IMG/VR virus record: IMGVR_UViG_3300047377_000437
Coordinates: 1-39,572 of that record
Length of the DNA stretch: 39,572 bases
Reading direction: 5' to 3' (one strand)
Origin: a virus
Below the pieces are notes generated by a model. It saw only the letters and a program-made list of their open reading frames with translations, made no database searches and was not told where the DNA came from. The translations under genes and the position numbers were made by a program. Shown here piece by piece: positions 237 through 17,873 of this stretch. Numbering within the stretch: position 1 is the stretch's first letter; the number at the start of each line of letters is the position of its first letter.

Positions 237-473
237 ATGAGTGACGATATAAGATCGCATAACATTGGTGCCTCGGACTATTCCAAATATAAAATACAAC
301 CATGGGATATTTGGCTTGAGTACAACCTAAACCCATGGGACGCTGATATTGTTAAACGTGTATTACGCACCAAGAAGGGTGAGCGACGACTGGATTATGA
401 AAAAATTATCCATGTGTGTCAGGAACGGATACGCCAACTGGACGCAAGCGAACCGGATAAAGAAAATGAGTAA
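237..473 (+). CDS. DUF3310-like small phage protein
   Basis: The 78-residue product contains YKIQPWDIWLEYNLNPW followed by VKRVLRTKKG. This matches the pattern of the DUF3310 phage family (aromatic, I-x-P-x-D, then a VI-K-Y-x-x-R helix and a lysine-rich turn). The family is often labelled nucleotide kinase in databases without proof. I chose the ATG at 237 rather than the ATG at 213 because GGGAG at 223-227 is correctly spaced from it. The end overlaps the helicase start (ATGAGTAA), so the two are probably translationally coupled. The family call is from motif memory and is moderate. Confidence 0.6.
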   Translation: MSDDIRSHNIGASDYSKYKIQPWDIWLEYNLNPWDADIVKRVLRTKKGERRLDYEKIIHVCQERIRQLDASEPDKENE

Positions 474-1971
474 ACCAACTTTAACTTATGACCCCATAAC
501 GCAAGAGTATTTTTATGCTTGCAGTCGCGAGGAGAAAGACATACCGAAACAATGCCGGATGAAGTGGTCCGCTGGAAACACAGCTTGGAAAACTAAAGAC
601 TGGGCATTGGCCATGAGAGCCGCAGAGCTTTCAGGCATTGGTACCGAGATGTTTAGAGATAAACTTTTACGGCCACCAGCTCGACTAACCCTCCCAGATT
701 TCTTATACGACTACCAGAAGGAAGGCATCCAAACGATTGTGGCTAATAAGAATTTATTGCTGGCCGACGAGCAAGGGCTAGGCAAAACGGTACAAACTAT
801 TGAGGCCTTGCGGTACCTAGACGCTCGCCGCATTTTAGTATTGTGTCCGGCATCACTAAAGTATATGTGGCAGGAGCAATTTGACCAATGGTCGGATAAC
901 CTACTCACCCAAGTGGTTGCGAATGGCAAGACACAAATTCTATTTACTAACAACGTCGTTATAGCTAACTACGACTTGGTGTCTAAACGGTATATCTATG
1001 AGCAGCTACGCGCATGGGCTCCCGATATGGTGATCTATGATGAAGCGCATTACCTTAAAAACCCCACGTCCAAACGGGCTAAGGCGTCGTTTCTACTTGG
1101 GGCTAAAGCCAAGCGGCGACTGATGCTTACTGGTACCCCAATGCTTAATCGCCCGATAGAGTTGTATAGCATCCTTCGGTTTTTAAAACGAGAAGCGGTT
1201 GAGCCATACGACAATTATAAAAAGTACGGGTATAAGTTTTGTAACGGTAAAGAGGGCCCGTTTGGTTTTGATGTTAAGGGGGCCAGTTGTACCGACGAGT
1301 TAAACTACCGACTCAAACGCACCGTCATGTTGCGGCGACTAAAGGCCGATGTGCTTACCGATTTGCCAAGCAAGACGATGCAGATTATTCCCATGGAGCA
1401 AACCAAGGACACTAAAAAGATAGTCAAGCAAGAGGGATTGTTCGACGTGAATAAAATCTTAGAGAAACCAGACGCCAACCTTATCGGCGAGATGGCTACT
1501 ATCCGTCGAGAGCTTGGAGAAGCTAAGCTGCCACAGAGCATTAGCTACATTAAAGATGTAATGGCGAGTGGCGTTGAAAAGGTTGTGGTGTTTGCGTACC
1601 ACAAGGCCGTATGTGAAGGGTTGTACGAAGCGTTTAAAGAGGAAGGGGCGGTGCTAGTCTATGGCGGTACTGCGTCAACAGATCGCCAACGCTACGTCGA
1701 TCGGTTTCAAAAAGACGCAGACACTAAAGTATTTATTGGCCAGATACAAGCTGCTGGCACTGGACTCACCCTAACCGCAGCCAGTCACGTGGTATTTGTA
1801 GAGAACAGTTGGGTGCCCGGAGAGATGGACCAAGCAGTCGATCGCTGCCACCGCATTGGTCAGAACAATAAAGTAACGGCGCAAGTATTGGTTGTGAAGG
1901 ATAGCATCGACCATGTTATAATGAGATCAATGTTTTTTAAAAAGAGAAAGATTAAGGAGGTTTTAAAATAA
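466..1971 (+). CDS. SNF2/SMARCAL1-type DNA helicase
   Basis: This is a 501-residue superfamily 2 helicase, ATP-dependent on DNA. Motif I is DEQGLGKT (residues 101-108), motif II is DEAH (192-195) and motif III is TGT (222-224). In the C-terminal lobe AAGTGLTL and DQAVDRCHRIGQ are motifs V and VI. The HRIGQ box is diagnostic of SNF2 proteins, and the short form with no accessory domains resembles phage SMARCAL1/HARP-like annealing helicases. Residues 1-70 form a small N-terminal region of the W-x-x-x-x-x-W type. The ATG at 466 overlaps the upstream stop; an upstream in-frame ATG at 349 lies inside the previous gene and is rejected. It probably remodels replication forks or anneals strands with the nuclease, ssDNA-binding protein and polymerase encoded just downstream. 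Confidence 0.93.
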   Translation: MSKPTLTYDPITQEYFYACSREEKDIPKQCRMKWSAGNTAWKTKDWALAMRAAELSGIGTEMFRDKLLRPPARLTLPDFLYDYQKEGIQTIVANKNLLLADEQGLGKTVQTIEALRYLDARRILVLCPASLKYMWQEQFDQWSDNLLTQVVANGKTQILFTNNVVIANYDLVSKRYIYEQLRAWAPDMVIYDEAHYLKNPTSKRAKASFLLGAKAKRRLMLTGTPMLNRPIELYSILRFLKREAVEPYDNYKKYGYKFCNGKEGPFGFDVKGASCTDELNYRLKRTVMLRRLKADVLTDLPSKTMQIIPMEQTKDTKKIVKQEGLFDVNKILEKPDANLIGEMATIRRELGEAKLPQSISYIKDVMASGVEKVVVFAYHKAVCEGLYEAFKEEGAVLVYGGTASTDRQRYVDRFQKDADTKVFIGQIQAAGTGLTLTAASHVVFVENSWVPGEMDQAVDRCHRIGQNNKVTAQVLVVKDSIDHVIMRSMFFKKRKIKEVLK

Positions 1972-8806: not shown

Positions 8807-9040
8807 CTAATTTAATGAATCCAATAGAGTTTGTATCTCTGTTTTTTCACTTTCGTCGGCTACTTCTTCGTAGTGCGGGTTAGATATAAGAAACGTAATC
8901 GCCTTTTTTAAATTTTCTTTTAAGGTAGTTAACTCAGATTTGTGTTTAATTCCGATATTATCTAAGGCATCGCGCACGTTTAGCATATTGTTATAAGCGT
9001 TTAGTAATTCTTGGTTGTCTTTTATGTTTTTAATTGTCAT
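8807..9040 (-). CDS. Small helical hypothetical protein
   Basis: The 77-residue product is almost entirely helix-forming and charged (KDNQELLNAYNNMLNV; ELTTLKENLKKAITFL), with no membrane segment or cysteine. AAGGAG stands about 10 bases before the ATG, and the gene overlaps the end of the fibre gene by 11 bases. Its position between the fibre and the lysis genes suggests a fibre chaperone or lysis accessory, but there is no motif to support either. Confidence 0.65.
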   Translation of the reverse strand: MTIKNIKDNQELLNAYNNMLNVRDALDNIGIKHKSELTTLKENLKKAITFLISNPHYEEVADESEKTEIQTLLDSLN

Positions 9041-11300
9041 TAGTTGTTTGCTCCTTGGTGCTGTTCACCTTATATTCTACACCGTATTTAGTAAATTCGT
9101 CTACTGCTAATTTATCTTTCCGATCGCCAAAGATCAAAATATTGTAGGTACCCGACTGCTCGCATACTATTTTTGCCCGCTTGCCTCCATCGATTACCTC
9201 GCCCCATGCTCGCCCAAAATGCTTAAATGGGTTAGCCCACACTAAACTGTCTTTGTTTAAATGTTCAAAGTAATCGGGCAAGTCTATGTAGTTCTCGCCT
9301 TCACGGCACTCAAGCTGGTACTTGTATATATTACCCCCTGCACTTGGTGTTTCCACAAAGTAATGACGCAACCGGTGTGTGTCGGTTTTTGCTGGGTCTG
9401 GGTGTGCAATGTCAAATGAACCTGAGCCTTTGGACATCGCCCCCGTAACATTTAAACTACCGTAAATGTAGGTGTTCTTTGTACCTCCGCCGTGAATGTT
9501 AAATCGCATGATTAAATCGTCACCATTCCACCCGTGGGGTACGTGAATATCCATTGCCCCATTGACAGTTGAGTATCCGCCCCCGGAGCTTCCATACGCA
9601 TAGCCATAATACCGCATCCAATTATAAGTTCCGGTTCTAAACCCAGAATTTCTACGAACCTTAATGTGCTCATCTAGCACTATATGGCTTAATTCAGAAG
9701 TTCCCCCAGCATCAAGGTATCTTGACGAATTGTTTGAGTCAACAAATCGGGGGCAATGAAAAAAACCGTCATTAAGATCAAACCAACTCCATTCACCACC
9801 CATTTGATCCCACCCACCTGAAAAATCATCGGATTGGTTATTTAGATGGGGTAAAAAATAAGCTCGATTACTATTTACATGAATAGTAAATTCACGATTG
9901 CTGTCCGTATCATTAAAATGAATTGACGGGCTAGTGCCTCGGATATTAATTCCATCGTCACACTCAAAGCTGCCGTCAATTATAAAATCACCATTCTGAC
10001 TCATTCTTGCCATTTGGGAATTATCGTTTCGAAACAGAATGTCACCGTCCCCAAGTGCATTAATAAATGTGTGAGAGTTTGTTCCAAACAAGAATCTATA
10101 ATCATTTTCCCCATTGACCCAAACACCCCCATACCCTGTATACGACGGATGTTGCCCTATACTCACATCAACGTTAGACGTTGTCCCTGCCCTAATATTA
10201 CCCAGCACCTGTAAACGCTCGCTAGGCTGATTTGTACCCACCCCGACTTTTCGAGTATAGGTATTTACAGCAAGGTCAACATTTCCATCGTGGTCTAAAA
10301 ATTGAATTACACCGTCATTCGATTGCTTGATGTTAAAAGTCGATCCCCCTGTTGCGTACATCGTCAAACGATCGGTTGTGTTTGTTCCCTCTTTTGCTCT
10401 AAATCTCAACCCCCCAGCTTCGTTGTTTACGCCTTCAATTACAGCCTTTGTAGCTGGCGCACTATTTCCAATACCGACATTCCCGCCTGTATCTTGTAAT
10501 ATGACTGTACCACTTGAATTTCCAGAGCGTATGTACCAATCAGCGTTAGACCCTGCGTGTATATATGATCCGTTAGGTGTATTTGATTTGGTGGTTTGTA
10601 ACGCCATGGTATTTCCGGAACCACCTATTAGATCAAATTTTGAAGATGGCGCAAATGTTCCTATACCGACATCTCCTGCGTCCGATAGTGTAATTCCTTG
10701 GGTTCCTGAATCGTCTAATATTGATATTCCAGCATTACTTCTGGCACGAATCCCCTCTGTCGCTAAATGCTGCCCGCTGTTTTGGGTAAATGAATCTCTC
10801 GGGTCCACTCCCCCAGCATTAGCGTCTACGTAGTCCTTAATTGCTTTAGCACTAGCTAACGTATCGTCGTTTGCGCTTACGCTTGATAAATCTGTATCTA
10901 ATACCCCCGGTTTTAGATTATCAGCTTCTAAGTTGCTGACCGTTGTATTGTCGGCGTCTACGGTAGGTAGGCGAGATTCCGGTATCGTACCGCTTGTGAG
11001 ATTCGTAGCGTCTTGGCGTTTAGTATCCAATTCGTCAATGGCTGCTTTGACGGTGCCCGATGATAGCGACGAGTCGGCGTTATTGTAAATCACCTTGTTT
11101 GCTTCAATACCGTCCGCAAACACCCACGCCGCGCCATCCCACCGGTAAAGCCCTTTGATTTTTCGGTTAATGCCGATAACGCCTGTGGTTGTCTTTACAG
11201 CAAATAAATCGCCTAACTCACCGGTGGTCGGTAAATCCGCAAACGCGTTAACTTGCCCCTTGATCGGGGAGTCCGCCCCAACAAATAAATCCTCTAGCAC
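9030..11300 (-). CDS. Tail fibre protein with repeated GIGT-type segments
   Basis: This 756-residue fibre has a virion-anchor-like N-terminus containing GLYRWDGAAWVFADG (about 50-64). Fibre spacers follow (TVKAAIDELDTK, GTIPESRLPTVD, DDTLASAKAIKDYVDAN). Repeated units VGIGTFAPSSKFDLIG, VGIGNSAPATKAVIEG and VGVGTNQPSERLQVLG are typical of trimeric phage fibres. The C-terminal 140 residues, from KGSGSFDIAHPDP on, form a separate compact domain with LRHYFVETPSAGGN and HFGRAWGEVIDGG. This could be a capping or receptor-binding domain. The start is GTG at 11300 with GGAGG seven bases upstream. It is the second fibre in this genome and may be the primary adhesin. Confidence 0.88.
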   Translation of the reverse strand: MLEDLFVGADSPIKGQVNAFADLPTTGELGDLFAVKTTTGVIGINRKIKGLYRWDGAAWVFADGIEANKVIYNNADSSLSSGTVKAAIDELDTKRQDATNLTSGTIPESRLPTVDADNTTVSNLEADNLKPGVLDTDLSSVSANDDTLASAKAIKDYVDANAGGVDPRDSFTQNSGQHLATEGIRARSNAGISILDDSGTQGITLSDAGDVGIGTFAPSSKFDLIGGSGNTMALQTTKSNTPNGSYIHAGSNADWYIRSGNSSGTVILQDTGGNVGIGNSAPATKAVIEGVNNEAGGLRFRAKEGTNTTDRLTMYATGGSTFNIKQSNDGVIQFLDHDGNVDLAVNTYTRKVGVGTNQPSERLQVLGNIRAGTTSNVDVSIGQHPSYTGYGGVWVNGENDYRFLFGTNSHTFINALGDGDILFRNDNSQMARMSQNGDFIIDGSFECDDGINIRGTSPSIHFNDTDSNREFTIHVNSNRAYFLPHLNNQSDDFSGGWDQMGGEWSWFDLNDGFFHCPRFVDSNNSSRYLDAGGTSELSHIVLDEHIKVRRNSGFRTGTYNWMRYYGYAYGSSGGGYSTVNGAMDIHVPHGWNGDDLIMRFNIHGGGTKNTYIYGSLNVTGAMSKGSGSFDIAHPDPAKTDTHRLRHYFVETPSAGGNIYKYQLECREGENYIDLPDYFEHLNKDSLVWANPFKHFGRAWGEVIDGGKRAKIVCEQSGTYNILIFGDRKDKLAVDEFTKYGVEYKVNSTKEQTTNDN

Positions 11301-11620
11301 TATACTACCTCCGAAACGCGTACGCTAAACGTTATACTTGTTGACGCATTAGTGACGATGTTAATTCCTAACGCTACCATTGGAGCCGACGTCGCTTTAA
11401 TCCACACGTTTCCAGTGACACCGGCTAACACGTTGGTCGCAATCGTGTCTCGAATTTGTGGGGTCGTTGAAATCAATACCGCTTCCAAGTTTATGTTATC
11501 TGACGACGACCCACCCTCAATACGCACGGTCGCTCGCGCGTTACCTTGCAAGTAAATAAGCGGTTGCTGCCCCGTCTCGGTTGTGTAAGTCTGTATAATG
11601 TCCCGAGAATAGTGCGCCAT
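11300..11620 (-). CDS. Small virion-associated hypothetical protein
   Basis: The 106-residue product is rich in beta-forming Thr, Ser, Val and Ile, with few charges. The profile resembles small fibre-base or decoration domains (ARATVRIEGGSSSDNINLEAVL; SITFSVRVSEVV). The start overlaps the upstream stop (TAATG), and its own stop overlaps the start of the large fibre gene, so the three are coupled. A part in joining the second fibre to the particle is inferred from context alone. Confidence 0.65.
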   Translation of the reverse strand: MAHYSRDIIQTYTTETGQQPLIYLQGNARATVRIEGGSSSDNINLEAVLISTTPQIRDTIATNVLAGVTGNVWIKATSAPMVALGINIVTNASTSITFSVRVSEVV

Positions 11621-12102
11621 TAATCAGCCCAGTGTTTGTCGTCGGCGCAATCAAACGTCTCTAATTGCTTCACCGTATATTTTGCAATTTTTAACTCGAG
11701 CGCGTTTGACTTCACCCGTATGTTTTCAATAAACGTCACCATGTCTCGGTATGCGTCTTGCTCAAACGCTTGAGCGTAAATTAAGTTAAGCTGCTTTGTG
11801 ATCGGGTAAATCGCTGTGATCCGGCGATACGCTTCTTGTTTGATACCTTGACAGTAGTGTTGCCGGACCTCTTCGATAAAAAACTGCTTTTCTAAAACTG
11901 TTGAAAACTCATTAATTGGGTTAAGTGCGTACAACTCTTGTTTTAATTGGTCTGTTAATTCCAAAAGCTCAACAGCGTTATCCCCACCAATATCTTGACT
12001 AGCTGAAACAACGTATTGGTTTTGTATATAAAAATAAGTCTTTTCCCCAGTCGTTGCTGGCTCAATAATGTTTTGTAAATTCAGTATTTTGTAAGCGTAC
12101 AT
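11620..12102 (-). CDS. Hypothetical protein between two fibre genes
   Basis: The 160-residue, mostly helical product starts with MYAYKILNLQNIIEP and ends with a short acidic tail (DCADDKHWAD). It lies right after the propeller fibre and before the second fibre. Small helical proteins here often act as tail-fibre assembly chaperones, and the C-terminal Trp-Ala-Asp would fit a chaperone tail, but I recognise no family. Its ATG is followed closely by the stop of the preceding gene (nine-base gap). Confidence 0.65.
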   Translation of the reverse strand: MYAYKILNLQNIIEPATTGEKTYFYIQNQYVVSASQDIGGDNAVELLELTDQLKQELYALNPINEFSTVLEKQFFIEEVRQHYCQGIKQEAYRRITAIYPITKQLNLIYAQAFEQDAYRDMVTFIENIRVKSNALELKIAKYTVKQLETFDCADDKHWAD

Positions 12103-12111
12103 AGTTATCTC

Positions 12112-14304
12112 CTAGCTAAAATAAAAGGGTTGCATGGTTGACCTGCTTCGATTAGTTCCCTCTCGATAACTCGGTAACTGGTAATTACCCCCATAGCCAG
12201 ATTGATAATACACACCTTCTTCTGTCAACACACCCAGGGAAGCCTCCGTCGAACGACCAACAGAACACAGTTTAACCGGTTTGTGCTTCATAAAACCAAG
12301 AACTGGCTGCAAGCTGGTATTGGTTGCATTATTGGTGCCAATACCATATTGTCCGTAATTATTCCAGCCACAGGCCTGAATGTAGCCATCGTCGTATAAG
12401 ATCACAGTGGATGCGCCGTCGAGTGTCCCTAAAGATTTTAACTGTGTGATAGTACGCCCCGTTCGAAGGCTGTTGGGAATTGTTTGGTGCGTGTTTCTAT
12501 TAGTAGTCGTCCCATCACCTAGTTGGCCGTGATAGTTATACCCACTAGCAACGATGCTCTGATCGTCTTTAATTACATAAGAAACTTCATAGGCTCCACG
12601 TGCCATCAATATGTCTTGATTATCTGTTCCTAACCCACTTAGATGCTGGGGAGTAGTGTATTGAGTAGTGTTCCCCGTTCCTAACCCCCCACTTCCGTTA
12701 TGCCCCCAAGTATAAACAGCACCGGTTGATAACAAACACATGGACGTTCCGTATTCAGTATTGAAAGCAGTGTTCCACCCGTGCGCCCCCGAAAACTTAG
12801 AAACCGCCACACCCCCAAAAGCATTGACTAGTTGAGGCGTTGATTGAGTTGTTGTACTTCCAATTCCTAGTTGCCCGCGGCCGTTCCAGCCCCACGTGTA
12901 TAAATTGCCCGACGTATCAATTCCGGCTGAAAAGCCCCCCCCAGACACGCCCATGGCGTAAATCTTAACCCAATCGCTTTTTGACAACAACTGCGGGGTG
13001 GATTGATTGGTAGTGTTGCCTATGCCTAACTGCCCATTAGCATTATACCCACAAGCATACAGACTTCCGTCATCGGCTAAAAATAAAGTGTGGAATCCAT
13101 TGTAATAATATGCTTTAGATAACTGAACATCTACGATATTTATCCCATTTAAGGCAGTAACCTTTGTTGGTACCAAAACATTAGATGTATTGCCTACGCC
13201 TAGCTCGCCATAAGCATTGCGCCCCCACACCCATACCTCGCCATTATCCATAAGCACGATATTGTCCGCTCCCTGGCGTTCCCATTTAATCGGCGTTCCG
13301 GTTGTGTTTGCTGGAAACGCTGGCTGAATCATAAATGTAGAATCGTGAAGCTGAGTGCCTGCGCCAAGCGAACCATAAGTTCCCTGACCCCAGCATCGCA
13401 ATGTTCCATCATCTAAAAGAACACCGCCAGATCGGTACCCACCATCATGAGCTGCACCATCCGTATTCGGCAGGTCAATCACTCGCCGTTGTGGGTTTTG
13501 CTCCCAACCAACCACTGAGCTTGCTCCAACGCCCAGCATGTCGTATTGATTACCAACCGGTAATCGAGTAACAGATGTGCCGTTGTTGTATAATAGATCC
13601 CCTTTAGCCGAGAGCAAAGTCGCAGAAAGCGCACCCAATGTTATCAACGCAGTAGCAGCATCCGCATCGTCTAAAAGCGTTTTAGCAAACGCGCTAATAC
13701 CCAACGTTGTCAACGCAGTAGCAGCATCGGGATCGTCAATAAGTGCTTGCCCAAATTCTGATACTGCGTAATCGCCGACAGAAGCTCCGGGTCCCGCTTC
13801 GGGAACCCCAGTCGTGTTATTAAAGAACATATACTTGCCCTTTCGCGCGTCAAGCGGTGGGAGCTCAATGGGCGAAGCTCCAGTATCTGACGGCGACTGG
13901 CGAATTGTCCGCTCGCCGTCTCTCTGAACTTGCTGTATAAGCGCAATAATTTTATTTAATGCCAAATTCATAGCATCCGAGTTGAATGCCCCCGACGTCG
14001 TAAAACCAGTGGTTCGCTCCGCCGGTATATCTCGAAAAAGCGTGACGTTGTCGTTTAATGCTAAGCCGGTGCTAAAAACAACTTTACCGCCAGCTAACCC
14101 ATCCGCCAGATCATCCGCAGTGATACTTGACCCGTCGGAGTTTTTAACTGTATAATCGGTAGTCTCCGTTTTAAGCACATCATTAAGATACACTTTTATG
14201 TCGGACGTTTCATAAATCACATATGTAAATACAAAGTCGGTCTGACCTGCTGTAGCCACATATTGGTGAATTGGATTTATATCGTTTACTGGTACATTTG
14301 CCAT
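12112..14304 (-). CDS. T7 gp17-type tail fibre with RCC1-like beta propeller
   Basis: Residues 1-140 of this 730-residue protein match the phage T7 tail fibre N-terminal attachment domain (YVATAGQTDFVFTYVI, VYLNDVLKTETTDYTV, LFRDIPAERTTGF, LNKIIALIQQVQRD). Residues 180-225 hold two fibre repeats of the D-D-x-D-A-A-T-A-L-x-T-L-G kind. From about 290 to the end come RCC1-type blades, each with a W/C-G-x-N-x-x-G-x-L-G-x-G core: CWGQGTYGSLGAG, VWGRNAYGELGVG, ACGYNANGQLGIG, TWGWNGRGQLGIG, TWGHNGSGGLGTG, ASGYNYHGQLGDG, ACGWNNYGQYGIG, and a weaker eighth (QSGYGGNYQL). AGGAG precedes the ATG. The propeller probably replaces the usual receptor-binding tip. Confidence 0.92.
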   Translation of the reverse strand: MANVPVNDINPIHQYVATAGQTDFVFTYVIYETSDIKVYLNDVLKTETTDYTVKNSDGSSITADDLADGLAGGKVVFSTGLALNDNVTLFRDIPAERTTGFTTSGAFNSDAMNLALNKIIALIQQVQRDGERTIRQSPSDTGASPIELPPLDARKGKYMFFNNTTGVPEAGPGASVGDYAVSEFGQALIDDPDAATALTTLGISAFAKTLLDDADAATALITLGALSATLLSAKGDLLYNNGTSVTRLPVGNQYDMLGVGASSVVGWEQNPQRRVIDLPNTDGAAHDGGYRSGGVLLDDGTLRCWGQGTYGSLGAGTQLHDSTFMIQPAFPANTTGTPIKWERQGADNIVLMDNGEVWVWGRNAYGELGVGNTSNVLVPTKVTALNGINIVDVQLSKAYYYNGFHTLFLADDGSLYACGYNANGQLGIGNTTNQSTPQLLSKSDWVKIYAMGVSGGGFSAGIDTSGNLYTWGWNGRGQLGIGSTTTQSTPQLVNAFGGVAVSKFSGAHGWNTAFNTEYGTSMCLLSTGAVYTWGHNGSGGLGTGNTTQYTTPQHLSGLGTDNQDILMARGAYEVSYVIKDDQSIVASGYNYHGQLGDGTTTNRNTHQTIPNSLRTGRTITQLKSLGTLDGASTVILYDDGYIQACGWNNYGQYGIGTNNATNTSLQPVLGFMKHKPVKLCSVGRSTEASLGVLTEEGVYYQSGYGGNYQLPSYREGTNRSRSTMQPFYFS

Positions 14305-14327: not shown

Positions 14328-17300
14328 TCATTTCTCATTCGGTGCAAACCGAGTTATGGGTGCTTCTTTGCCGTCGATAAAATATTCTTTTTTATCCGAC
14401 ACTGCCCGCGCAGTAATCTCTGGGTATTCAAGTAATAACTGATCCTGTGCTATTTTCAAATCGGTCTGATACAGTTTCCGCAGGGCTCCGCCGCGAGTCG
14501 CCGTTGGTGGCCCAATCTTTTCCAGTTGTTTAGCCGGTATGGCTGGCAACGACTCGTATATGCTTGACTCAGTAAATTTTAACAGTTTGTCATACGTTTT
14601 TAACTCGCCCATCAACTCTAGTAATCGATTGTATTCATCGGGATTTAAACGCGCCTGCCCTATTGGGGTGGGTAGCCGACGACTTGGTTTACTAATAATA
14701 GTGCCGTTGTTTAACTCCTCAATTGCAAGTTTGTCGTTTGCGCCATATTGCGTCAACGATAACGGAAGTATATTGCCCACCGCTGTTGAACGCTTTGGTA
14801 TTGGTCGCCCAAATTTATCAAGTTTGTCCTCGCCTAAATTTAATCGAGCCAGTATACTTTCCCACAACGTATCTGTTTGTTTTTTGTTGTCTTCAAAAAA
14901 GCGAGATGTCCAAGCTACTGCGCCCGGAACAGTCAAACCTGTGACTAAACTCTTACCGACTCGCTTCAATCCATACTCGTCTTGTTCAGTCACAATATTA
15001 AACAAGTCTCCAAGTTGCCCCGTGAAGTTTGAACTCGTAATCTGATCGGCAGTCCCAAGCATACCCGCAGCTATATAATTCATAATATCTTCGGCAAGGT
15101 CGTCTTCAATAGTATCGCCGTCCATGTAGTGAAACAACTCCACCACGTTGGCTGCTCGGATAAAGGGCGCGCTCAATGGGCTAAAATCGTTTAAGCCAAT
15201 AACTGTGTTACCAATACGCATCGAGTTTTCAAACATACCTGCATTGTTTAATGTATTGCGCTGACCCGGATCTTTTATGACCGATCCGCGAGTTAAGCCA
15301 TCATACGCCATCTTAAAGGCCAATACTTCGACTCCGGTGGATACAGCCATTCGGCCGATTGCTAAATCGCGTTCTCGGGCGGATCCGCCAAACAACGCTC
15401 TTTGAGTTGTGGAGTTTCCGCGCACATTTAACAAGCTGAGTGGCGATTTTGCCAACTCGTACTTAGTCAAATTGTAAGTGGTCTTTACAAACGGGAATAG
15501 CAGGAACCCTCCGGGGACTTCATTAACCACGGACTCAAAACCCTTCCCGACGCCTGTGAGGTCTTCCGTTAAGCTGACACGTTTAGCTTCGGCTCGTGCT
15601 TGTCGGCCAGCGGTAACTTGTTGCGCTAATGTTTTATTTTTTAGCGAGCTTAACTTTTTTGTGTCTAAAAAGTCTTTCAAGTTTTCTTGCTCCCAGATAT
15701 CAGTTGTTAGCTCTTTAACCCGATCGTTAAAAGCCGCCCCCTCTAATCCCTCGTTGGTAGCTCGTGATATTGCTCGCGCCTTAAGCTCAGCCCGAAACAC
15801 AATCGCTTGCCCCACGTGATCTTTATTTCGGTAAAAACCCAATACCGGCTCCATCGAAGCGGTTGCATAGTCTAATGCCCGTAAAGCCACGTTGTCCGGT
15901 TTTCCAACTAGATCCGCTATTTTAACCTCCGTTTCTTGAACGTTTAATTTTGTACTAGAATCCAAGCGGACTGATTTTGCTTTTTCCGCCATGTCCTCTA
16001 AAAATCCCTTAACCCCAGTCTTGACTCCGCTAATCTTTCCAGTTTCTGCGGCCGCCTCTTTGGCTTTTTTAGCATTTAATTTTGCAATCTTGCCGGTGCC
16101 AACGATCACCTGTTTCCAATACTCGGCGTATCCGGCCGATAACGCCTTAGCCTCAGTAAATGTAATATCCGTAGGGGCCGTAGCTTGCCTAAACGCACCA
16201 TTCCGATACGCCTCGTCAACAAATCCCGCCCAGCCTTTTTCTTGCTTAATCGTTTTCGCCGCTTTAGCCCCGCGTCGAGCAGCACCTACCGTAGCCGCCG
16301 AAAAACGATCCGCCACTTCCCACGTATGCCGATACATATCCGAAGACACGTCACGGGCCATAGACACTGGCGATGATAGTAGAAAACTTTTAAATCGGCG
16401 AGCAATCAAGTCGTTGACATCTTTAACTTTTGTAAGCGTCTTGTTACTAGGCCCGCCAAGAAAACCTGCAACGTCACCGCCATTTTTTGCCAGTTGAATA
16501 AGTGCTTTCGCATAGTCAATCTCGTCTTCTATAGTAAGTTTCCCATCCGCCACTAGCTCCTGAACGGCATTGAACCACGTCACACTTTCTCTCTTGGCTC
16601 GAAACTGCACCCCCCGAGCGGCCCCTGAGGCTACGTCTCGCGCAGTACGCGCTATCTTCGTAAAGTCTTCCGCCACCCCCGCAACCGTCCTTGCCGCTTG
16701 CACATCACCAGCGTTAACTAAAGACTCTAAATCCGTAAACGCTTTGGTCATCTCTTGGTATTGGTTATCTTGAATAACCGTTACCGCAGCAATCTGCTCG
16801 TCAACCTTTAACTCCTTGGCCGCTTTATATGCGTCTCGCGACTTTAAATCCTCAACAGTAACCCCTAAAAGTTTCGCCGCTTCGTCTAACTCTTTTCGGG
16901 TTTTGGTTTCTTTAGCTGGCTCCTCAACCGCTTTCTTTAACCGCTGTACCGCCTCGGGAGGTTGCGCTGCTTCTTTTATTTTCTGTACTTGTTTCTCGGC
17001 TAAAGATTCCAACTCCTTACGCACTTTTGTCATTTGTGCTTGAACCGGTTTTACAGTTTTTTCAACTACCGTTCGGGCTTGGTTTACCCGAGCCATATTG
17101 CGCACGGACCGAACGCCTTTCAGTACAAAATCGACAGCGAGCCCAGCACCTGCGCCCTCTAACGCATTAATAAAACGTGTCTCAAACGGCGAGTCCTCTG
17201 CGTCTTCTTTTAAATAGGCCGGTAGTTTTTTAGCCAGCTCGGGATCTACAGCCTTAACTAAACTTTCAGTTAATGCCATTCGCTCCTCAAATCCTATAAA

Positions 17301-17873
17301 CTCTGCGGCTGCCCCTTGCGCCGCTGCTTTTATAGCCTTCGGGACTTTAGCCGCCGCTTTAGCAACCCCCGCCGCACGGGATGCCTGACTGATTGGTAAA
17401 AACGCAGTGGCAAACTGCGTAATAGACTCCGCCACGCCCCCCGCTGCTGTTTTAGTCTCTGGAATAATGTCTTTCACGCTTATTTTCTCGCGCATAATAT
17501 CCAACACTTTTGGGTCTATTTTACCGCTCGTATCAGTTGCGGCAACTAAATCAATGCCTAAATTCTTTATAGACTCAACCGTATTTAAAACGCCAGCGAC
17601 CGCCCCTTTCGGTATGTCCATAACCTTGGCCACGACTTCTGGGTCGTCAAACGATTGCGCTAAAGGATCATACGATCCCCCGCCACCAAGGCCCCCCAAC
17701 GCTTCTCTGCGAGACTCAGCGGCTAACTCGCGACGAACCTGCTCGTCTATCCGTTCTCGTGTAGCCCCGCGGGCCGCTTGCGCTTCCGCCCCACTTGCGG
17801 TGTTCTCAATGCTGACGGCAATAGCATCTTGAAAAGTAAGGTCTTGTTGTTCGTCTAGTCTATCGCTCGCCAC
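14328..17873 (-). CDS. Large internal virion protein (ejectosome component)
   Basis: The 1181-residue protein occupies the gp16-like position of T7-type phages. It contains Ala/Lys-rich helical regions, glycine-rich amphipathic stretches (AGGVAESITQFATAFLPISQASRAAGVAKAA region, 145-180) and long coiled-coil-like segments (260-330). A central domain begins RFKSFLLSSPVSMARDVSSDMYRHTWEVADRF. Such proteins leave the capsid during infection and build a channel across the cell envelope. I see no lytic transglycosylase motif, unlike T7 gp16, so wall cleavage may be done by another protein. The start is GTG at 17873 with AAGGAGC; it overlaps the upstream gene by 14 bases. Confidence 0.8.
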   Translation of the reverse strand: MASDRLDEQQDLTFQDAIAVSIENTASGAEAQAARGATRERIDEQVRRELAAESRREALGGLGGGGSYDPLAQSFDDPEVVAKVMDIPKGAVAGVLNTVESIKNLGIDLVAATDTSGKIDPKVLDIMREKISVKDIIPETKTAAGGVAESITQFATAFLPISQASRAAGVAKAAAKVPKAIKAAAQGAAAEFIGFEERMALTESLVKAVDPELAKKLPAYLKEDAEDSPFETRFINALEGAGAGLAVDFVLKGVRSVRNMARVNQARTVVEKTVKPVQAQMTKVRKELESLAEKQVQKIKEAAQPPEAVQRLKKAVEEPAKETKTRKELDEAAKLLGVTVEDLKSRDAYKAAKELKVDEQIAAVTVIQDNQYQEMTKAFTDLESLVNAGDVQAARTVAGVAEDFTKIARTARDVASGAARGVQFRAKRESVTWFNAVQELVADGKLTIEDEIDYAKALIQLAKNGGDVAGFLGGPSNKTLTKVKDVNDLIARRFKSFLLSSPVSMARDVSSDMYRHTWEVADRFSAATVGAARRGAKAAKTIKQEKGWAGFVDEAYRNGAFRQATAPTDITFTEAKALSAGYAEYWKQVIVGTGKIAKLNAKKAKEAAAETGKISGVKTGVKGFLEDMAEKAKSVRLDSSTKLNVQETEVKIADLVGKPDNVALRALDYATASMEPVLGFYRNKDHVGQAIVFRAELKARAISRATNEGLEGAAFNDRVKELTTDIWEQENLKDFLDTKKLSSLKNKTLAQQVTAGRQARAEAKRVSLTEDLTGVGKGFESVVNEVPGGFLLFPFVKTTYNLTKYELAKSPLSLLNVRGNSTTQRALFGGSARERDLAIGRMAVSTGVEVLAFKMAYDGLTRGSVIKDPGQRNTLNNAGMFENSMRIGNTVIGLNDFSPLSAPFIRAANVVELFHYMDGDTIEDDLAEDIMNYIAAGMLGTADQITSSNFTGQLGDLFNIVTEQDEYGLKRVGKSLVTGLTVPGAVAWTSRFFEDNKKQTDTLWESILARLNLGEDKLDKFGRPIPKRSTAVGNILPLSLTQYGANDKLAIEELNNGTIISKPSRRLPTPIGQARLNPDEYNRLLELMGELKTYDKLLKFTESSIYESLPAIPAKQLEKIGPPTATRGGALRKLYQTDLKIAQDQLLLEYPEITARAVSDKKEYFIDGKEAPITRFAPNEK

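Follow-up and report, generated by a model that had tools for sequence, protein, structure and literature searches.

A swappable RCC1-type propeller as the likely head of a short-tailed phage's side fibre

The minus-strand gene at positions 12112–14304 of the window, the 39,572-nucleotide stretch of viral DNA analysed here, quite likely encodes the side fibre of a short-tailed phage whose receptor-binding head is a swappable RCC1-type propeller with eight predicted blades, exchanged as a cassette together with half of the downstream partner gene. The gene combines an attachment domain, a stalk and a propeller, variation in its propeller family is restricted to two sets of loops, and the tip is found on the stalks of two different kinds of phage.

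Anatomy of the fibre gene and predicted fold of the propeller

The gene opens with ATG and encodes 730 amino acids, whose parts were delimited with Pfam, PHROG and AlphaFold. Along the minus strand of the window, terminase, portal, capsid, tail proteins, a gp14-like protein and an internal virion protein (phrog_6651; 14328–17873, minus strand) are followed by the fibre gene and then by genes of 160, 106 and 756 amino acids. In T7, gp16 immediately precedes gp17, and the window fibre gene likewise lies directly after the internal virion gene in the gp16 position. An annotated tail fibre also adjoins an internal virion protein in Methylophilales phage MEP301. By portal, MEP301 (34% identity) and Pelagibacter phage Hodr (31%) are the nearest cultured relatives, values too low for a host to be named from them. 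A scan of cellular genomes for the host returned only two distant RCC1 proteins, from a Chloroflexi MAG and from Kutzneria (33–34%), and a near-DNA search of the structural region against phage records gave no match. Elsewhere in the window a SNF2-type helicase (349–1971, plus strand) is encoded near DNA polymerase and exonuclease genes, and no phage RNA polymerase was found among the scanned ORFs.

Residues 6–127 of the fibre (13924–14289, minus strand) match PHROG 1640, 'tail protein' (1.3e-15). Since residues 5–149 of T7 gp17 match the same profile (7.3e-21), the N-terminus of the window fibre is linked to gp17. The Pfam T7-fibre domain PF03906 gave no match to the fibre at E ≤ 0.1, and a direct profile comparison of the N-terminus with gp17 was weak (P 0.012, probability 3.5%). 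The 'T7 gp17-type' label of the preliminary description therefore holds only as a remote profile plus gene order: the fibre is no member of PF03906, and what it has in common with gp17 is the PHROG 1640 profile and the position of its gene. The attachment domain is kept in L001, L002, L005, L007, L008, L009, L016 and L017 of the related contigs described below. Together with the T7-like gene order, this N-terminus argues for a location on the tail and speaks for the earlier proposal that the propeller is a fibre tip.

The attachment domain is followed by a stalk or linker (residues 128–230; 13615–13923, minus strand), which was mostly helical in a low-confidence model of the full-length fibre. 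That model was poor (pLDDT 47.7) and was superseded by one of the propeller alone, made with a wider alignment. A conserved entry linker (residues 231–266; 13507–13614, minus strand), at which the propeller cassette begins on both stalk types, leads into the RCC1-type propeller (12115–13491, minus strand).

The repeat family of the propeller is clear from Pfam, in which the fibre matched WD40_RLD (PF25390) at 4.1e-56, RCC1 (PF00415) at 1.6e-47 and RCC1_2 at 1.1e-27; the first two scored 191.3 and 160.3 bits against curated cut-offs of 150 and 21.7, respectively. AlphaFold modelling of residues 262–730 yielded a propeller with a pLDDT of 87.8 and a pTM of 0.89, from an alignment of 37 sequences comprising 26 of 79 loci picked by eye, L028, L029 and nine family sequences. 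The RCC1-like propeller read from the letters alone was thus borne out, and the unrelated fold that the preliminary description had named as counter-evidence was not what the model gave. Eight A–B hairpins are marked in the sequence, and the strand order in the model corresponds to eight four-stranded blades. The earlier count of seven clear blades and a weak one is correct in number, while the 'weak' eighth is complete in the model. Blades a to g are predicted, all on the minus strand, at residues 292–344 (13273–13431), 347–395 (13120–13266), 405–453 (12946–13092), 456–510 (12775–12939), 517–567 (12604–12756), 574–625 (12430–12585) and 632–682 (12259–12411). Blade h, the 'weak' one, is predicted to have three strands of its own (residues 689–727; 12124–12240, minus strand), and a short strand on the N-terminal side (residues 275–277; 13474–13482, minus strand) most likely pairs with it as the fourth and closes the ring.

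RCC1 domains usually have seven blades. With eight predicted, the window propeller falls outside the seven-bladed subgroup of RCC1, UVR8 and HERC2. Members of the RCC1 family with ten repeats are noted in an excerpt of PMC2716378, and seven blades are therefore not taken to define the whole repeat family. The best solved structural matches to the model were domains of HERC2, UVR8, HERC1 and RPGR (Z 32–36, 332–353 residues aligned, 3.3–4.2 Å), with HERC2, UVR8 and HERC1 leading at Z about 35 over 338–353 residues. In Foldseek, TMq was about 0.63 to UVR8 and HERC2 and 0.78–0.81 to several viral models, including the T7-like fibre of PollyC (0.79) and the 'Tail fiber protein' of Littlefix (0.81). 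Because these viral models score so high, the eight-blade form is probably common to several phage fibres; eight hairpins are marked also in PollyC and SeaP4.

Loop-restricted variation in the propeller family

Variability was determined across ten non-redundant propellers, from which L017 and L047 (near L016) and L048 (near L001) had been dropped as near-duplicates. In this set 343 of 503 columns were invariant. The blades scarcely changed in strands A and B or in the AB loop, and variation was located mainly in the BC and DA loops, with peaks, counted from the glycine ending strand B, at +1, +3, +4, +6 and +14 (BC) and at about −21 to −15 (DA). Columns with at least three different residues amounted to 27/73 in DA and 34/146 in BC, as against 0/40 in A, 0/32 in AB, 1/40 in B and 10/136 in C/CD/D, and, of 467 circular shifts, only the zero shift gave so large a contrast between DA plus BC and the rest. 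The variable loops also differ by indels between propellers. Codons at 24 variable positions differ at all bases. Both observations speak against a target of a diversity-generating retroelement, in which variable codons stem from template adenines and a reverse transcriptase is encoded nearby.

Propeller topology puts the BC and DA loops together on the same side of the ring, opposite the AB and CD loops. Judged by the topology of RCC1, the variable BC and DA loops of the fibre would share one face. In the same register, positions +3 and +14 correspond to UVR8 residues D96 and D107 (in the printed alignment of the mutant chain 6xzl, D96N D107N, with 4dnw), and W285, counted on from that alignment, falls at −16. 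We take these three residues to form the dimer contact of UVR8. The variable loop positions are candidate receptor contacts.

The ratio dN/dS was 0.30 in DA and 0.25 in BC, compared with 0.02 in A, 0.05 in AB, 0.05 in B and 0.13 in C/CD/D (dS 0.53–0.93). Even at the most variable positions it was 0.58 (0.42/0.73), below 1, and the variation in the loops is therefore compatible with relaxed constraint. This would fit a propeller that is a structural or assembly element, such as a knob, a spacer or an attachment point for an adhesin, with loops free to vary and another protein binding the receptor. A candidate for such an adhesin is the 756-amino-acid product of a second fibre-like gene downstream (9030–11300, minus strand). 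Among relatives this gene is conserved at both ends and variable in between, and it possibly encodes a second adhesin; residues 629–756, for instance, are 91% identical in L007 and L016, and the middle is unaligned. A merely structural role would also agree with the propellers of the Pseudomonas phages PollyC and SeaP, in which the one-face pattern is absent: variable columns were spread evenly among PollyC, SeaP2 and SeaP3 (three sequences; A 17/40, AB 8/32, B 10/40, BC 59/144, DA 23/72, C/CD/D 58/148), and between SeaP1 and SeaP4 (two sequences) variation was likewise not limited to one face. We nevertheless consider a structural element unlikely, because the AB loops are loops as well and yet are nearly fixed, and because whole tips alternate, an unrelated one taking the propeller's place and half of the partner gene changing with it, in the manner of receptor-binding cassettes.

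Exchange of tips and partner-gene halves between phage types

A scan of viral contigs for the fibre gave nine loci (L001–L009), to which later scans added L016, L017, L023, L027, L032 and L035–L037; apart from the cultured phages, all contigs are metagenomic. The stalk of the window fibre (stalk A) carries the propeller in six contigs (window, L001, L002, L005, L016 and L017), of which L001, L002 and L005 contain all or some of it. Three others (L007–L009, with one and the same fibre in L008 and L009) combine a stalk A that is 92–98% identical to that of the window with a second, unrelated tip, and their other genes are closely similar to the window's too. A stalk with a different N-terminus (stalk B) bears the propeller in six contigs (L003, L004, L006, L023, L027 and L032, the last about 18 residues in) and the second tip in three (L035–L037). 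Propellers on the two stalks share mostly 79–90% amino acid identity, and the second tip shows 90% identity between L036 (stalk B) and L007 (stalk A). As each tip occurs on each stalk, all four combinations exist, with the breakpoint at about fibre residues 208–231. This recombination of two stalks with two tips across related contigs upholds the modularity that had been proposed for the tip. The preliminary description had counted against its own reading relatives that lack a propeller without a change of host; in L007–L009 the other tip takes the propeller's place, which tells neither for nor against that reading.

Stalk B is encoded downstream of tape-measure, baseplate hub and wedge genes, and a baseplate-J-type gene is 94–98% identical among stalk-B contigs with either tip. 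These contigs derive from contractile-tailed phages, probably of a Mu-like kind. When L003, L004, L006, L023 and L027 were compared with the window proteins, only the propeller matched, plus the partner gene in L023. Sequence comparison suggests that the propeller tip is a cassette traded between unrelated phages. Among further stalk-B loci, L034, L038 and L041 stop within the stalk and L039 just past it, leaving no readable tip; the stalk-B relative L040 (8001–9221) has a third tip, whose propeller is made from another kind of repeat (Reg_prop / DUF6242). A search in phages for the linker peptide as a general recombination site gave no match, which lends no support to the idea that such a linker is widespread in phage fibres.

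The tip replacement bears on the meaning of the RCC1 name as well. PHROG 4219, 7220 and 16766, which match the RCC1 part of the fibre, are categorised as DNA metabolism, 'regulator of chromosome condensation', and the authors of the phAPEC6 study propose, without a test, that RCC1 proteins order DNA (excerpt of PMC7247149). It is very improbable that this part condenses or organises phage DNA and that the tail-like N-terminus is incidental, and for the window fibre gene we reject it: the protein begins with a tail-attachment domain, its gene occupies the fibre position, PHROG 20500 and 11922, which also cover this RCC1 part, carry a tail label, and the close relatives L007–L009 carry a different tip while their remaining genes are closely similar. 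That the stalk–tip combinations are chimeric assemblies is hardly credible either, since, although the contigs are metagenomic throughout, several are short and assemblers err at conserved linkers, each combination is found in separate UViG records (6, 3, 6 and 3 contigs), most of them distinct in sequence, and the 37–40 kb contigs L001, L007 and L016 have syntenic context on both sides.

The exchange extends into the 160-amino-acid gene downstream (11620–12102, minus strand), which is chimeric. Downstream of a propeller, its first ~86 residues (11845–12102, minus strand) all belong to a single type; genes that follow the second tip open with a different ~50 residues. This first half matched the tip type in every contig read, with no exception, and the second half is of two types independent of the tip (one in the window and L007, the other in L002 and L008). 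Because the first half switches with the tip, the cassette starts at about fibre residue 208–231 and ends midway through the downstream gene. Two scans with the partner gene brought only contigs already in the set and L133, which starts inside the gene, and thus provided no independent test of the pairing. The L133 protein (2–406) is 99% identical to that of the window over residues 26–160. In L048 (303–992), the partner gene and the following 106-amino-acid gene form a single reading frame, apparently after a deletion; in L001 they are separate.

The 160-amino-acid protein had no Pfam or PHROG match, and tblastn with the L008 partner found none in phages. By sequence it does not belong to Tfa or another known fibre-assembly family; what it has of such partners is adjacency to the fibre gene and co-transfer of its first half. 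As published fibre–chaperone pairs are alike in this respect (excerpt of PMC10579305), it is likely to be the tip-cognate assembly partner of the fibre, with a putative role as chaperone.

Propeller alleles are themselves mosaic. For seven propellers (the partial L005, L006 and L027 were left out) PHI was 0.322 against 0.377 ± 0.005 (p = 0.001). The window and L001 share an exact run of 191 nt in blades a–b (shuffle maximum 101), despite only 63% identity of their capsid and only 72% of their internal virion proteins. Exact runs also cross the phage types, with 77 nt between L016 and L004, 62 nt between L016 and L003 and 53 nt between L001 and L004 (p 0.002–0.004, uncorrected for the 45 pairs tested, most of which were unremarkable), and the nearest neighbour of 90-nt segments is often of the opposite stalk type. 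The earlier suggestion that the repeated cores support variation by recombination stands as far as allelic mosaicism between viruses is concerned; blade-to-blade recombination within the gene was not seen in the window family. The sole sign of amplification at blade level comes from Pseudomonas phage SeaP1 (L130), in whose fibre gene an exact tandem duplication of 111 nt, from base 1939, lengthens the RCC1 part by 37 residues and shows up in the sequence alignment too.

In the swappable-head reading that we prefer, the first ~130 residues would anchor the fibre to the tail, the helical stalk would follow, and the propeller, presumably trimeric, would sit at the far end and contact a structure of the host surface with its variable BC/DA face. 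Exchange of the tip with the partner half would give a phage a new head on a stalk that still fits its own tail. The cassette would have moved between the podovirus group and the contractile-tailed group, alternating with the second tip on both stalks, and unrelated phages with shared tips plausibly meet in the same hosts. Head exchange probably serves the choice of host bacterium. SeaP1–4 have two propeller versions and a common isolation host, Pf-5, so that a tip version need not equal a host.

More tentatively, and with somewhat less confidence than we would place in an even chance, eight-bladed RCC1 fibre propellers may constitute an evolvable binding scaffold comparable to the face of a lectin or an antibody, in which the BC/DA face diversifies, the other is fixed, alleles are reshuffled by segment and tip-plus-partner cassettes move between short-tailed and contractile-tailed phages sharing hosts. 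On this view, many phage genes labelled 'regulator of chromosome condensation' would be host-recognition heads. If the receptor-binding reading is true, a function would be assigned to a large class of phage genes now categorised as DNA metabolism, and a repeat propeller would join the known phage receptor-binding folds. One head on unrelated phages and two heads on one kind of phage form a natural series for testing head-determined host choice.

Comparison with known systems

The closest counterparts are the fibres of the T7-like Pseudomonas phages PollyC and Ppr_SeaP1-4, which, like the window fibre, join a T7-fibre-like N-terminus to an RCC1 propeller; in PollyC and SeaP4 the match to PF03906 is slightly under the cut-off. 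Their fibre gene also follows an internal virion or lytic transglycosylase gene, and a near-constant stalk is combined with divergent propellers, as in the window group. Their propellers are about 25–30% identical to that of the window, and variation in them is not restricted to one face. PHROG 4219, filed as DNA metabolism, matches the PollyC fibre over its full length, tail N-terminus included. A propeller at the fibre tip is thus less unusual than the preliminary description had made it, since public records already contain T7-like fibres with an RCC1 tip (PollyC and SeaP; compare Littlefix).

In the open-licence PMC literature, which proves no absence elsewhere, we found no description of an RCC1 propeller as the receptor-binding tip of a phage. 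In the excerpts found there, phage proteins of RCC1 type bear a DNA-condensation name or are supposed to have that function (PMC7247149, PMC4909266), and 'RCC1' in the relevant passages of PMC10218006 and PMC5723332 is the name of a gene or strain, not the domain.

Outside phages, UVR8, HERC2 and RCC1 have the same repeat and fold, and the variable positions of the fibre coincide with D96, D107 and W285 of UVR8; those proteins have seven blades, whereas eight are predicted in the window, where the propeller is borne on a phage fibre. BLIP-II (1jtd, 3qi0), a protein-binding RCC1-like propeller from bacteria, matches the window model with Z about 18, but it is smaller (268–273 residues) and, unlike the window fibre, not a phage protein. 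The K1F endosialidase tailspike likewise carries a propeller on a phage tail protein; according to an excerpt of PMC2716378 this is a six-bladed Asp-box enzyme and, in contrast to the window propeller, not of RCC1 type.

For the exchange, the parallel is with Alteromonas phages A5 and V22, in which fibre–chaperone modules are common to morphologically distinct phages (excerpt of PMC10579305), so that a fibre and its cognate partner are exchanged across morphotypes, as proposed here. That paper mentions neither a propeller nor RCC1, and in the window case each of the two genes is broken internally and two tips alternate on two stalks. Both RCC1-tipped T7-like fibres (in records) and fibre-module exchange across morphotypes (PMC10579305) are already known. 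As far as our searches of the literature show, what is new is the prediction of eight blades, the one-face variation in the window family and the exchange, in a two-by-two pattern, with a contractile-tailed phage.
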